Part shown: positions 10,120 through 36,397 of the stretch, one piece after another | Layout: each line of letters begins with the position of its first letter | Position numbering within the stretch: the first letter of the stretch is position 1 | Source: an uncultured archaeon | Lineage (GTDB): Archaea > EX4484-52 > LFW-46 | Direction: 5' to 3' | NCBI GenBank assembly: GCA_902384675.1 | Contig: CABMCT010000021.1 | Location: 1 to 36,515, forward strand | Length of the DNA: 36,515 bases | Position numbers and translations under genes: made by a program | The notes under the pieces: generated by a model | What the model was told of the DNA's origin: nothing | The model's input: the letters and a program-made list of their open reading frames with translations, nothing else | Databases searched by the model: none

Positions 10120-10332
10120 ATGTCAGGCAAAAAGTTCACAATCGTCATAGAAAAGGACGAGGATGGCTGGCTGGTTTCGGAGGTTGTCGGTTTACCCGGT
10201 TGTCACACTCAAGCTAAAACGATGGAGCAGCTCATAGAAAGGACAAAGGAAGCTATACAGGCATACTTAGCTAATTCTGAAGAGCCGCGGGTCCTCGAAA
10301 AGTTTGTGAGCGTTCAGCAAATAGAGGTGTAA
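10120..10332 (+). CDS. hicB: HicB-family antitoxin
   Basis: 70 residues. MSGKKFTIVIEKDEDGWLVSE continues into VVGLPGCHTQAKTMEQLIERT, the HicB partial RNase H-like fold with its E-D-x-G-x-x and LPGCHTQ signatures. It has no C-terminal DNA-binding extension, as in short HicB proteins. It binds and blocks HicA. A TTG start at 10099 is possible but the TATA box position favours ATG 10120. hicA starts 3 bases after the stop, so HicB is first in the operon. Confidence 0.88.
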   Translation: MSGKKFTIVIEKDEDGWLVSEVVGLPGCHTQAKTMEQLIERTKEAIQAYLANSEEPRVLEKFVSVQQIEV

Positions 10333-10335
10333 CCC

Positions 10336-10569
10336 TTGACAAGGCTGTCCCTTCTGACAGGCAAAGAATTGGCCAAAATCGTTGAGCGTGTAGGCTTCGT
10401 TTACAGCCATACAACAGGAAGCCATATGGTCTATAAGCATCCTGACGGCAGAAAAACCACTATACCAAATCATGCCGGCGAAGAAATCGGTCCAGGTCTT
10501 CTGAATCGAGTTGTTAAAAACGACTTAGGCCTGACAAGAGAGCAATTTATTAGAATGCTTAAGAAATAG
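10336..10569 (+). CDS. hicA: HicA-family mRNA interferase toxin
   Basis: 77 residues starting with TTG. LLTGKELAKIVERVGFVYSH runs into TTGSHMVYKHPDGRKTTIP, the dsRBD-like HicA fold whose conserved catalytic His sits in GSH. It cleaves mRNA when free of HicB. GAGGTG inside the end of hicB is spaced 6 bases from the TTG, which supports it. The module appears intact. Confidence 0.88.
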   Translation: MTRLSLLTGKELAKIVERVGFVYSHTTGSHMVYKHPDGRKTTIPNHAGEEIGPGLLNRVVKNDLGLTREQFIRMLKK

Positions 10570-19872: not shown

Positions 19873-19983
19873 TCTTGATGTATCCCTTGGGCTGCTTAAA
19901 AATTTCAGGAAATTTCGCTTGTATCTACGGCATAAGACGATACAAGCCCTGATTAAAGGATTTAAAACCCTGCTTACAATATC

Positions 19984-20152
19984 ATTTCAACTCAATACAT
20001 TGGGTTAATGGTTGAAAATCCTGGAAATTCGTTTCCAGGCTTTTCAACCCAAAGCATAAAATAAAGGTTGAAAATCCGTTCGCAACGCATCTGAACCATG
20101 AACCGCGTTGCTCTCGGCTTTTTGACCCAAATAAAATGGAGATGGTCAAAAA
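19984..20152 (+). promoter_or_regulatory. Structured leader of serS with alternative hairpins
   Basis: Arms in order: ATTTCAACT (19984-19992), GGTTGAAAA (20010-20018), TTTTCAACC (20041-20049), GGTTGAAAA (20066-20074), TTTTTGACC (20119-20127), GGTCAAAAA (20144-20152). Loops between successive partners are 17, 16 and 16 bases. In the alternative register 20010-20018 pairs with 20041-20049 and is extended by CCTGGAAA/TTTCCAGG on a TTCG loop. GCAACGC/GCGTTGC (20082-20088, 20105-20111) forms another stem. The last loop carries the Shine-Dalgarno GGAG (20138-20141), and its right arm ends on the A of the start codon. This is strong evidence for a regulated mRNA leader. Confidence 0.7.
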
Positions 20153-21435
20153 TGCTCGATATAAAACTCTTTCGCGAAAATCCGGACGTTGTCAGGAAGG
20201 ATTTGAAGAAGCGCGGCATAAAGGAATTGCTGCCTCTTGTAGACGAAATCATAACGCAGGACAAAATCTGGCGCACTCTTTCAAAGGAGGCAGACGATGC
20301 CAAGGCAGGGAGAAACAGGCTTTCCGAGGAAGTGGCAAAGCTCAAAAAAGAAAAGAAGGATGCTAATATAATAATTGAAAAAATGAAAAAGCTCTCGGAA
20401 AAAATACGCGAGCTTGATGCAGAAGTTGCAAAAGAGGAAGAGCTCATCTCTAAAGACCTCATGAAATTCCCGAATATTCTTCACGAATCAGTGCCTGCAG
20501 GTAAAGACGACACGGAAAATGTCGAAATCAAAAAATGGGGGATAATTCCGAAATTCGATTTTCCGCTAAAAAGCCATGTTGATATTATCGAGAAACTGGG
20601 CATCGCGGATTTGGAGCGCGCAGCAAATGTTGCCGGCGCACGGTTTTATTACCTGAAAAACGAGCTTGTGCTTCTTGATTATGCGCTCATCAGATTCGCG
20701 CTTGATAAACTGATAAAAAAAGGGTTCATACTTATCGAGCCGCCGTACATGATCCAGAGAAAGCCGTATGAAGGCGTTACAGACATGGCGGATTTTGAGA
20801 AAGTAATGTATAAAATCGAGGGCGAGGACCTATACTTAATCGCGACCTCGGAGCATGCAATCGCGCCGATGCACATGAACGAAATTCTTGATGCAAAGGA
20901 TTTGCCTCTAAGATATGCGGGAGTAAGCCCGTGTTTCAGGAAAGAAGCCGGCTCGCACGGAAAAGACACGAAAGGCATTTTCCGCGTTCACCAGTTCAAC
21001 AAAGTAGAGATGTTTGTTTTCTCGGAGCCAAAAGATTCGTGGCGGATTCACGAAGAACTCCTGAAGATTGCAGAGGAAGTGTTCCAGGACCTGAAAATCC
21101 CGTATCATGTGGTCAACATCTGTGTCGGCGATATGGGTGTTGTTGCGGCAAAGAAATACGACATCGAGGCGTGGATGCCGTCGCAGGGAACTTATCGCGA
21201 AGTCGTCTCGTGCTCGAATTGTACGGATTATCAGTCGCGAAGACTGGGCATAAGATCCAGAAAATCAACGTCAGAAAAGCCCGAGCTTGTTCATACTTTG
21301 AATTCTACGGCAATTGCCACGGCGCGCGCGATGGTGGCAATAATCGAGAACTACCAGCAGAAAGACGGAACAATTAAAGTGCCGGATGTTTTAGTTCCTT
21401 ATATGAATGGGTTGAAGGTTATCGGGAAGAAGTAA
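20152..21435 (+). CDS. serS: Seryl-tRNA synthetase
   Basis: 428 residues, bacterial/archaeal class II SerRS. MLDIKLFRENPDVVRKDLKK opens the coiled-coil tRNA-binding arm (residues ~1-105). Class II motif 2 is SPCFRKEAGSHGKDTKGIFR, which runs into VHQFNKVEMFVF, and motif 3 is HTLNSTAIATARAMVAIIEN. The ligands CSNCTDYQSRR are also present. It charges tRNA-Ser. The longer in-frame start at 20098 (MNRVALGF) is in the repeated leader and is not the start. The gene directly follows the structured leader. Confidence 0.96.
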   Translation: MLDIKLFRENPDVVRKDLKKRGIKELLPLVDEIITQDKIWRTLSKEADDAKAGRNRLSEEVAKLKKEKKDANIIIEKMKKLSEKIRELDAEVAKEEELISKDLMKFPNILHESVPAGKDDTENVEIKKWGIIPKFDFPLKSHVDIIEKLGIADLERAANVAGARFYYLKNELVLLDYALIRFALDKLIKKGFILIEPPYMIQRKPYEGVTDMADFEKVMYKIEGEDLYLIATSEHAIAPMHMNEILDAKDLPLRYAGVSPCFRKEAGSHGKDTKGIFRVHQFNKVEMFVFSEPKDSWRIHEELLKIAEEVFQDLKIPYHVVNICVGDMGVVAAKKYDIEAWMPSQGTYREVVSCSNCTDYQSRRLGIRSRKSTSEKPELVHTLNSTAIATARAMVAIIENYQQKDGTIKVPDVLVPYMNGLKVIGKK

Positions 21436-26609: not shown

Positions 26610-27767
26610 CTAGTACGAATTTCCGTTATTGAATCCCATCTTAACCAGCGTCGGCGTAATCAGGATTGTCGTTATGCAGACTGCCACCATTGCCGAGAAC
26701 AGCGTGAAGTCAATGACTTTGAGCGCAAGGCCGCTTGATGCAAGGATGAGGGAGAATTCCGCCCTTGGCAGCATCCCTGCAGCAATGACAAACGCGTCGC
26801 TTTTCTTGAATCCCATGTAAACCGAGGATAACATCAGCGGAACGAATTTTCCAAGTACAGTAATTGCCAGCAGCGCGGCAAACAGCCCGATGTTTGACGA
26901 GATATTGCTTATGGATGTTGAGACCCCTATGTCCGTGAAGAACATGGGAATAAAGAGCCCGTAAGCCACTGCGCTTAATTTCGGGACTATTGTGGGATTA
27001 ATGAACGGCGACTTGTTTATCACCATCCCTCCTATGAATGCCCCGATTATAAGCGAGATGCCTATCTGGTTTGCAAGAAGCGCCACTGCAAAGCCGATAA
27101 CCAGAGTGAATGATATAAGCGATTCCTTGACTACCATTTTCTCTGCAAGGTTGAGTATGTGGGGAACGAGCTTTGAGCCCGCGGTTGTCATTATTGTCAC
27201 AAAGCCGACAACTGTCAGTACCAGCTTCCAGATTTCTGCAGTGTTTAACGCGGTATTTGTGAAATATGTTGCGGCTATCGCGAAAATGATTATGCCTATG
27301 AAATCATCGACTATGCTTAAACTTAAAAGGAATTTTCCAGGCTTTGTATAAAAGCGGTTCATGTCCACGAGGCATTTGACGCAGACTCCGGTGCTTGACT
27401 GGCTGAACACTGCCCCGAGAAACGCGGAAATTGCGTAGCTGAACCCGAGCAGGTAATGTGCGGACATAACGATTATCACGAATGCGAGAATCTGGCTGAA
27501 AATGCCTATTACAAGAGAATCAACGAGGTTGTCCTGCAGCTCGTCCATTTTCGTATTGAGCCCGATCAGGAAGAGAAGCAGTATCCCGCCTATCTGGAGA
27601 AACTCGCCTATGCCGTTGTCTGACTGGAGAAGCCCCAGCACCGAAGGCCCGATTATAATGCCTGCAAGAATTTCCCCGACAAGCGCGGACTGATTCAGCC
27701 GTTCTGCTATTTCTCCTCCTATTCTTGCGAAGAGTAGCAGCATTAGCATTACGAAAAGCAGTTCCAT
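26610..27767 (-). CDS. CPA2-family Na+(K+)/H+ antiporter
   Basis: 385 residues, about 12 membrane segments. Start MELLFVMLMLLLFARIGGEI then LVGEILAGIIIGPSVLG, typical of CPA2. SIVDDFIGIIIF carries the paired Asp that bind Na+/H+, and QSSTGVCVKCL is the preceding segment of the TM4 region. There is no C-terminal RCK/TrkA domain. It exchanges Na+ or K+ for H+. The 370-base leader before it is highly structured, so expression is probably tightly controlled at the RNA level. Confidence 0.88.
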   Translation of the reverse strand: MELLFVMLMLLLFARIGGEIAERLNQSALVGEILAGIIIGPSVLGLLQSDNGIGEFLQIGGILLLFLIGLNTKMDELQDNLVDSLVIGIFSQILAFVIIVMSAHYLLGFSYAISAFLGAVFSQSSTGVCVKCLVDMNRFYTKPGKFLLSLSIVDDFIGIIIFAIAATYFTNTALNTAEIWKLVLTVVGFVTIMTTAGSKLVPHILNLAEKMVVKESLISFTLVIGFAVALLANQIGISLIIGAFIGGMVINKSPFINPTIVPKLSAVAYGLFIPMFFTDIGVSTSISNISSNIGLFAALLAITVLGKFVPLMLSSVYMGFKKSDAFVIAAGMLPRAEFSLILASSGLALKVIDFTLFSAMVAVCITTILITPTLVKMGFNNGNSY

Positions 27768-28139
27768 TTTTTATCATTCTCCATATTTATTGGATAAAAA
27801 AGCCTGGAAACCGCAGTTTCCATGATTTTTTATCATTCCTCATTTTTAACCATTCACAATTATTATTGGGTTGAAAAGCTTGACACGAAGCCATCTCGAT
27901 AAATCTCGAAGGCTTCCAGCTTGAAAAGCTGGAGGTGTCATGATTTTCTTTGGATAAAAATCATCTCGTTCGCATAGCGAACTCGAAGCTTTTGAGGATT
28001 TTCAACCATACACAACAGCTCTGGGTTGGAAAGCCGAGAGCGCAAGCGAACGGACTCCCTGCCCTCAAAAAGCTCCAGAGCGAGCGATAGCGAAACGAAC
28101 GGATATTATCTCCCTCTTTAACTCAGTTTCTGCATAACT
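27767..28139 (-). promoter_or_regulatory. Long structured leader of the antiporter gene
   Basis: Read on the minus strand from 28139. It has TCCGTTCG blocks and CTCTGGAGCTTTTTGAGG as in the serS/rpl3 leaders; TTTCCAACC/GGTTGAAAA (28032-28024, 28007-27999; 16-base loop); a three-way junction closed by TGACAC/GTGTCA (27940-27935, 27886-27881); TTTTCAACC/GGTTAAAAA (27877-27869, 27851-27843; 17-base loop); and finally TTTTTTATC/GATAAAAAA (27801-27793, 27775-27767; 17-base loop). The last loop holds GGAG (27782-27779) and the right arm ends on the A of the start codon. GATAAAAAA can alternatively pair with the TTTTTTATC arm around TGGAAAC/GTTTCCA. A cation or pH-responsive element is one possibility (inference). 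Confidence 0.65.
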
Positions 28140-34970: not shown

Positions 34971-35416
34971 GAATACCTTTATAAATCTTACTGGTATAAT
35001 ATAAGGTATTCGATTTACCGTTGGATAACACAGTATTTTACTGTTGAATTCTCGGCAAAACCTTACAGAATCTTGTAAGGTTGGCTTCAAAGTCTTGGCT
35101 GTGTTTAATTGGCACGGGTTAGCGTTTTATTGCGTCTAATATTAGTGTCTACGCCTCTTTGAATTCTATCGATGTTTAATGTGATAATTTCAACCCAATG
35201 CATAAAATAAAGGTTGAAAATCCGTTCGCAACGCATCTGAACCATGAACCGCGTTGCTCTCGGCTTTTTGGGACAAAGGGTTCCCAAAAGCTTGCCAATC
35301 GCAATTGGCGGGATTTTGACCCAAAGCAAATGGAGAATGATAAAAAATCATGAAAGCTTAGGCACGTTTTGTGCTTTCAAGCTTTCGAATCCAAATAAGA
35401 TGAGGAATGATTCGAA
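34971..35416 (+). promoter_or_regulatory. Long structured leader and promoter region of rpl3
   Basis: GAATACCTT (34971-34979) and AAGGTATTC (35003-35011) bracket a TATA-like TATAAAT, and AACCTTACA/TGTAAGGTT forms a hairpin at 35059-35082. Then ATTTCAACC/GGTTGAAAA (35187-35195, 35212-35220; 16-base loop), the 49-base core with GCAACGC/GCGTTGC, TTTTGGGA/TCCCAAAA, GCCAAT/ATTGGC and GAAAGCTT/AAGCTTTC. Last is TTTCGAATC/GATTCGAAA (35383-35391, 35409-35417) with a 17-base loop that carries GAGG (35402-35405). The right arm ends on the A of the rpl3 start codon. Confidence 0.65.
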
Positions 35417-36397
35417 ATGGCAAATCCGCGTCGCCCAAGAAGGGGCTCAATGGGTTACTCTCCAAGGAAGAGAGCAAAGCGCATTTTTCCAAGAGTTATG
35501 AGAAAGGCGCAGGGCAAGGAAGTCAAACCTACGGAGTTCGCGGGCTACAAAGTCGGGATGCTTCATCTTATGATGATTAACGACAAGAAGGGAACGCCGA
35601 TATCAAACCAGGAAATCGCGGTGCCGGCAACCCTTATTGAAGTTCCTCCGCTCAAGGTTCTTGGAGTCCGCGCTTACAAAAATACTGCTTACGGCCCGAA
35701 AGTCGCAGGCGAGGTATGGACAGATAAGACCGACAAAACGCTTTTGCGAACAATAAAATCGCCCAAAAAAATCAAGGCAAGTTTCGAGAACCTGGAGAAA
35801 AAGGTTTCGCAGCTTTCAGATATAATGCTTTTAACATACACACAGCCCAAATCCGCAGGCATTGACAAGAAAAGGCCTGAAATTATTGAGGTTGGCATCG
35901 GCGGGCAAAATGTTGCAGACAAGCTCAAATACGCAAAGGAAAAGCTTGGCGGGGAAATTCCCGTTGTTGACGTTTTTAAATCAGGAGAATTTATTGACAG
36001 CATAGCGATTACAAAGGGAAAAGGCTTCCAGGGCTCGGTTTACCGATGGGGCCTTAAGCTCTTGTCGCACAAATCCCAAAAACTGCACAGAAAGGCGGGA
36101 AACCTCGGTCCGTGGCATCCGCACAAGACAAGGCCGATGGTTCCGCAGATGGGCCAGATGGGATTTCACAAGAGAACCGAGTACAACAAGCGCGTGCTTA
36201 AAGTAGGCACAAACATCAAGGAAATCGCAAAAAAGGGCGGATGGAAGAATTACGGCGAAATCACAAGCGATTACATCATAGTCAAAGGCTCAATACAGGG
36301 ACCTGCAAAAAGGCTCGTTCGATTAAGGGCTGCGATAAGGCCTGCACCCGGCGTTTTTGGCAATATCGAAGTTACAAAACTAGGGATTAACGTATAA
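35417..36397 (+). CDS. rpl3: 50S ribosomal protein L3
   Basis: 326 residues, archaeal/eukaryotic length. MANPRRPRRGSMGYSPRKRA, then FAGYKVGMLHLMMIN, ITKGKGFQGSVYRWG and HRKAGNLGPWHPHKTRPMVP are universal L3 blocks. QMGQMGFHKRTEYNKRVLKV contains the segment near the peptidyl-transferase centre. L3 opens the archaeal L3-L4-L23-L2 cluster, and the next gene probably starts just past the window. Start 35417 is set by the leader hairpin. Confidence 0.96.
   Translation: MANPRRPRRGSMGYSPRKRAKRIFPRVMRKAQGKEVKPTEFAGYKVGMLHLMMINDKKGTPISNQEIAVPATLIEVPPLKVLGVRAYKNTAYGPKVAGEVWTDKTDKTLLRTIKSPKKIKASFENLEKKVSQLSDIMLLTYTQPKSAGIDKKRPEIIEVGIGGQNVADKLKYAKEKLGGEIPVVDVFKSGEFIDSIAITKGKGFQGSVYRWGLKLLSHKSQKLHRKAGNLGPWHPHKTRPMVPQMGQMGFHKRTEYNKRVLKVGTNIKEIAKKGGWKNYGEITSDYIIVKGSIQGPAKRLVRLRAAIRPAPGVFGNIEVTKLGINV

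Follow-up and report, generated by a model that had tools for sequence, protein, structure and literature searches.

Start-codon hairpins of an uncultured archaeon as probable insertions of a mobile repeat family between AT and G

Hairpins that carry a Shine-Dalgarno (SD) motif in their loop and end on a start codon recur throughout the draft genome of an uncultured archaeon, and these units are very probably insertions of a mobile repeat family, because orthologous starts in a species of the same genus mostly lack them, empty sites match to the base, units nest within one another at AT^G (the caret marks the insertion point), and long identical copies stand at unrelated genes. We hold with good confidence that the family consists of mobile, hairpin-ended mini-elements that are specific for AT^G, regenerate the start codon on insertion and carry an SD in their last loop. 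An initial annotation of one contig had read three such hairpins as the product of selection on RNA structure, and as a possible undescribed class of translational control element. The copies before many start codons and the lack of any Rfam match agree with a class not described before, but one that is very probably mobile and may or may not be regulatory.

The window, a 36,515-nucleotide stretch, is contig C21 of a draft archaeal genome (G000) of ~1.2 Mb in 76 contigs, about 89% complete. Its three hairpins precede genes that Pfam identifies as seryl-tRNA synthetase (serS), ribosomal protein L3 (rpl3) and a Na+/H+ exchanger (PF00999; the antiporter). They lie where first described, with exact 9-bp stems, loops of 16, 17 and 17 nt respectively, and the A of the ATG as the final base of the right arm (Table 1). 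The shared design proposed for them, an SD in the loop of a stem that ends on the start codon, is indeed recurrent, but the window holds further units away from start codons. The proposed CAA(A)TAA loop start does not generalize, the family loop being CAA-N(10)-(G)AAT or GAT. Longer insertions surround two of the hairpins. The serS composite consists, in order, of an A-type unit, a spacer hairpin, a second A-type unit, a CCGTTCG..CTCTCGGC hairpin and the SD unit, and when it is taken out with its left edge as deduced, ..ACAATATCAT meets GCTCGAT; the left flank of the rpl3 composite, GTGATAAT, is a native-type SD plus AT. In the antiporter leader, the spacer palindrome and the SD unit make up a 59-nt module after AT. 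Predicted RNA folding energies are ~-10 kcal/mol for the serS and rpl3 hairpins and -3.3 kcal/mol for the antiporter hairpin; stems this weak can probably be opened. The window also encodes a HicA toxin/HicB-like antitoxin pair (10120-10566, plus strand; PF07927, PF15919).

Table 1. Repeat units and insertions in the window
Feature	Position	Strand	Details
Unit away from start codons	3682..3719	+	
Unit away from start codons, 5' of serS	19981-20019		
Composite insertion 5' of serS	19986..20153	+	left edge deduced from the AT^G rule
Unit away from start codons, 5' of serS	20038-20075		
Middle hairpin between A-type and SD units	20076..20118	+	CCGTTCGCAACGC..GCGTTGCTCTCGGC; recurrent in many leaders
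SD-class unit, serS start	20119..20153	+	stem TTTTTGACC/GGTCAAAAA, loop CAAATAAAATGGAGAT, ATG at 20152
SD-class unit, Na+/H+ antiporter start	27766..27801	-	stem TTTTTTATC/GATAAAAAA, loop CAATAAATATGGAGAAT, ATG at 27767
Spacer palindrome in antiporter leader	27802..27824	-	CATGGAAACTGCGGTTTCCAGGC
Split outer unit, right half	27825..27841	-	GAGGAAT + GATAAAAAAT; halves joined give a canonical SD unit
Unit away from start codons, antiporter array	27842-27880	-	
Nested 101-nt insert at AT^G in the outer unit's loop, antiporter leader	27842..27942	-	CATGAC...AAAAAT
Split outer unit, left half	27943..27964	-	ATGATTTTTATC + CAAAGAAAAT
Non-SD unit away from start codons, antiporter array	27998..28035	-	
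Unit away from start codons	32209..32246	+	upstream of a TATA-like sequence preceding a DHH gene
Unit away from start codons, 5' of rpl3	35184-35221		
Composite insertion 5' of rpl3	35189..35418	+	left edge inferred
Additional SD-loop unit within rpl3 composite, away from start codons	35310..35348	+	
SD-class unit, rpl3 start	35383..35418	+	stem TTTCGAATC/GATTCGAAA, loop CAAATAAGATGAGGAAT, ATG at 35417
A-type unit directly after rpl3, away from start codons	36404..36442	+	contig end falls within repeat

A covariance model built from 14 family members returned at least 150 candidates from the genome itself, nearly all at E<0.01. Across the window and 40 other stretches (643 kb together), cmsearch gave 221 matches at E<=0.5, and a separate scanner with a threshold of >=14 bits found 211 units, about 8 of which overlap called genes. 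The aligned units follow the pattern RGC-TTTTNNACC-CAA-N(10)-(G)AAT-GGTNNAAAA-T, and a common leader places an A-type unit (loop CAATGCAT..) ~77 nt upstream, then the middle hairpin CCGTTCG..CTCTCGGC, then the SD unit. The stems are AT-rich, and the antiporter hairpin taken alone folds no better than shuffled sequence (z -0.18), as chance palindromes in AT-rich intergenic DNA would; but Markov-shuffled sequence yields only 0-1 units and the best units reach E-values of 1e-9, so that shuffles and copy number together rule chance out and leave it a negligible probability. No Rfam family scored above its gathering threshold in the window, and identity with a known RNA family was rejected on that ground. 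A viral origin was likewise rejected, as the SD-unit pattern, although a narrow one, matched none of 2.9 million viral contigs exactly.

The family is shared with a second species of the genus (G001), where 62 units were counted in 541 kb, one of those from G027, a member of another family of the phylum; beyond the two congeners, this G027 match is the only one among 32 other genomes of the phylum. The repeats are thus present in quantity in two species, each represented by a draft genome. The G027 match (L125:4303-4341, minus strand) is one full module, AATCCGGTC..CTCTCGGC + TTTTTAGCC..GGCTAAAAAT^GGAAAG, apparently within an ORF that would read ..GACAGAGGAATGGAAAG on excision. Variants recur as well. 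Units with a ~31-nt loop (CAAAGAAAAATGCAGATGGTTAGTGAGGAAT) occur at about 3420-3470 of L053 and in the G001 rpl3 leader (L104), at different genes in the two species, and a subfamily of near-identical non-start units, TTTCCAGCC..GGTGAAT..TGCTGGAAATG, has GGTG in its loop and no coding ORF beginning there (L050:15757, L052:16202, L078:5073, L079:2194 and 13582).

Across the 643 kb, the end of 50 units coincides exactly with the ATG of a coding ORF, so that further copies before start codons do exist, and every one of these start units contributes the A of that ATG as the final base of its right arm. The genes concerned include serS, rpl3, those for L14, S14, S8, S5 and L30 (all on one operon contig), TFB and secE. 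When units are classed by a loop containing GGAG, GAGG, GGGG, AGGA or GGTG, a coding ORF begins at 42 of the 68 SD-loop units and at 8 of the 143 others (Fisher p=1.7e-18). The SD lies in the loop, 10-11 nt before the ATG. The native signal is different: a strict SD 5-mer, mostly GTGAT or GGTGA at 3-5 nt from the start, precedes 17% of strong genes free of units against 6% in a control region, which leaves the initial description of the window as otherwise leaderless only partly correct. Flanking the insertions, SD-like 5-mers occur at 11 of 50 start composites (22%) and at 8 of 123 other units (6.5%; p=0.006), a contrast that is probably conservative, since automatic left-edge parsing worked for single modules and failed for the long A-B-C form. 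The 16S rRNA is absent from the G000 bin; the 3' end of the congener's 16S, used in its place, is GGAUCACCUCC, complementary to GGAG, GAGG and GGTGAT, and the loop SD lies near where GGAG would fall in the full GGAGGTGAT with GTGAT at its native spacing of 3-5 nt. The loop SD presumably drives translation. The G001 16S gene itself (L138, contig C50) matches over 1803 bases for 1478 model positions, and so probably carries roughly 300 nt of inserted or intron sequence.

The stem is kept in the units: none of 500 shuffles attains its covariation score, and slid pairings score far lower. Double-changed cells number 30 and 41 (in 32 and 31 distinct start units; 71 in total), counts that come from paralogous, related copies and do not represent independent events. 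Such strong covariation, the exact registration of SD-in-loop units on start codons, their enrichment in a ribosomal-protein operon and the missing Rfam match are what one would expect of a control leader evolved by the host, in which the stem is selected in RNA to present or mask the SD and is perhaps bound by a regulatory protein. Selection on RNA pairing is expected to favor G-U pairs. Among stem mismatches, A-C outnumbers G-U by 59 to 21 across all units and by 11 to 1 in start units, which argues against selection at the RNA level; the G-U-tolerant pairing expected of a leader with its SD in a loop is thus not what these stems display. The covariation itself therefore stands, but the selection on RNA structure once read from it is unsupported. 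The mismatch pattern would fit a palindrome kept at the DNA level, either as a substrate hairpin or through template-switch repair. As a caution, covarying stems among repeat copies need not imply a selected RNA structure.

Comparison with the congener bears most directly on how the units arose. For 32 G000 genes with a start unit, the start of the G001 orthologue could be seen: 24 lack the unit, 3 have it, and 5 carry a half or interrupted unit. In three pairs the empty site is exact to the base. At L041:4324, the G001 sequence (L119) reads GTGATAATTATG where G000 reads GTGATAATTAT(63 nt)G; written out, the filled site is GTGATAATTAT(CTTGAAAATTC...GATAAAAAAT)GGCGCG and the empty one GTGATAATTATGGCAAAA. 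At the TFB gene, L058:4724 reads GAGATTCTCAAT(CATGAAAGC...AAAAAT)GGCAGA against GTGATTCTAATGGCAGCC in L105, and in a reverse case the insert is in G001 (L117:11419, GGTGATTATTAT(CTTGAAAATTC...)GGCAAC) and the empty site in G000 (L061, GTGATTATTATGGCAAG). The insert separates the AT of the start codon from its G; starting with C and ending in AAAAAT, it regenerates the ATG, and in these pairs the native GTGAT-type SD remains upstream of it. The hairpins with different stems around a kept loop, once taken as the mark of selection on RNA structure, are on this reading mobile insertions, given the mostly bare orthologues, the nesting at AT^G and the excess of A-C over G-U. Together with the long identical copies at unrelated genes and the many units away from starts, these empty and nested sites make a host-evolved control leader improbable.

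Seven units end inside a loop that belongs to another unit, and do so at AT^G in every case; when the flanks of the seven nested inserts are joined they restore a canonical SD-loop unit, which none of 426 random AT controls do; one such case splits a unit in the antiporter leader (Table 1). Away from start codons, 42 of 68 units have G directly after their final AT, where 21% would be expected (p=4e-13), a count that sets aside cases with C after the AT, as C begins the next module. Because G is enriched after AT away from start codons too, AT^G seems to be preferred as a target, beyond what selection alone would leave at start codons. Conservation of the target extends over 2-3 nt (AT, with G after). 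The AT copy at the junction is compatible both with a 2-bp target duplication and with an AT that belongs to the element's own end, and in the longer A-B-C form the left edge is poorly defined. Unrelated genes share identical blocks of 50-120 nt, with both copies near a unit in 39 of 73 instances, and several contigs terminate in such blocks. Long blocks common to different leaders, and the mosaic arms of some units (e.g. L051:13816), would also arise if similar intergenic repeats had recombined or undergone gene conversion, and leaders had spread in that way and not by transposition, but the precise AT^G junctions at unrelated sites without flanking homology and the nested insertions at the same trinucleotide make that route very unlikely.

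We propose that short non-autonomous mobile elements, about 56-120 nt long, have these hairpins as their 3' parts. Such an element would contain at least one hairpin unit, with AAAAT at the end of the unit's right arm, and would enter an ATG between its AT and its G, the unit reading toward the G, so that element and old G together remake the start codon. GGAG, GAGG or GGGG in the loop of the last unit would then lie 10-11 nt ahead of the new ATG and take over from the native GGTGAT-type SD, which would be displaced upstream. With start codon regenerated and SD supplied, the protein would be unchanged and the gene probably still translatable; and since the element's own loop contains AT^G, elements would insert into one another and build arrays. 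The mobilized structure would be the DNA hairpin. The leading candidate for the mobilizing enzyme is a Y1/HUH transposase of the IS200/IS605 type acting in trans, an assignment we make tentatively, at somewhat less than even chances. One Y1 transposase gene is present in G000 and three in G001; in the two draft genomes (G000 about 89% complete), no unit flanks any of the four, nor did an autonomous element sharing these ends turn up. One IS605-type element, with tnpA (Y1) adjoining a tnpB-like gene, lies near a contig end in G000 (L133, contig C57). Tyrosine recombinase matches, 2 and 10 in the two genomes, are not lineage-specific. Neither genome contains a reverse transcriptase (PF00078), and RNA-mediated retrotransposition was rejected for this reason.

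Judged from sequence, a mobile element now appears to provide the translation start of dozens of essential genes, ribosomal-protein genes included. Mobile elements usually break the start regions they enter. This family can spread through essential operons, apparently without changing a protein, by rebuilding the start codon and bringing a ribosome-binding site, which would give selfish DNA a route to replace the signals for translating SerS, TFB, SecE and ribosomal-protein genes; its 3-base target is unusual for a transposition system. Selfish spread may have been followed by domestication, with the host using the loops to coordinate translation of ribosomal and core genes. In essential genes the element's SD is the only one near the start, and core pairing is slightly higher in start units (0.97 vs 0.95), but that gap is small and one model served to ascertain both classes; we consider domestication unlikely. 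The stronger proposal, that a start-codon-specific lineage with AT^G target and built-in SD took over initiation of dozens of essential genes and that its hairpins became the host's common translational switch, is likewise doubtful.

We found no equivalent in the literature on start-codon insertions or SD-bearing mobile repeats, which is weak evidence, as subscription papers mostly lay outside the search. Among known systems, the IS200/IS605 transposase binds the hairpins at the element ends, and a guide sequence determines where it cuts (PMC6006769). Miniature IS200/IS605 elements resemble the mobile family described here in having hairpins at both ends, no terminal inverted repeats, one orientation and, apparently, insertion 3' of a fixed short sequence (PMC6006769), and a hairpin does lie near each end of our single modules, which have a left palindrome (e.g. 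TTGAAAATTC..GAATTTTCAA) and a right unit hairpin. The usual IS200/IS605 target is conserved over 4-5 nt and is not duplicated on insertion, against 2-3 nt and AT^G only here. Unlike in those elements, too, the ends are shared by no tnpA copy found, an SD lies in the right-end loop and insertion restores the start codon. REP/BIME sequences of TnpAREP (REPtron) are likewise high-copy intergenic palindromes in modular arrays (PMC8266576, PMC3733652), but they have a GTAG/GTGG foot (PMC8266576, PMC6006769) in place of RGC (or ATG/GGG), loops of 2-5 nt in place of 16-17 nt, and frequent G-T pairs (PMC3733652) where our units have fewer G-U than A-C mismatches; location at start codons also sets the family apart. 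Given the lack of a GTAG foot, a short loop and a unit-flanked Y1 gene, we do not file it under IS200/IS605 or REP. BOX/ERIC/Correia-type MITEs are modular, structured, intergenic and of high copy number, and we know of no start-codon registration among them. The terminal inverted repeats of MITEs are absent from the family, whose ends, CTTGAAAA.. on the left and ..TTAAAAAT on the right, are not inverted copies of each other. It is in modular, structured, intergenic and high-copy character that the two agree (review PMC10969869). Rickettsia palindromic elements are also small palindromic elements that genes can tolerate, but they insert in frame inside ORFs (PMC10969869), whereas this family inserts at the start codon and leaves the protein unchanged. 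In marine Beggiatoaceae, TAACTGA repeats for which a role in translation or mobility has been proposed are similarly abundant directly 5' of start codons, also in ribosomal-protein operons, but are short direct repeats with no hairpins and little SD character (PMC4679880). In spirit, these last two, the Rickettsia palindromic elements and the Beggiatoaceae TAACTGA repeats, come nearest to the family described here.
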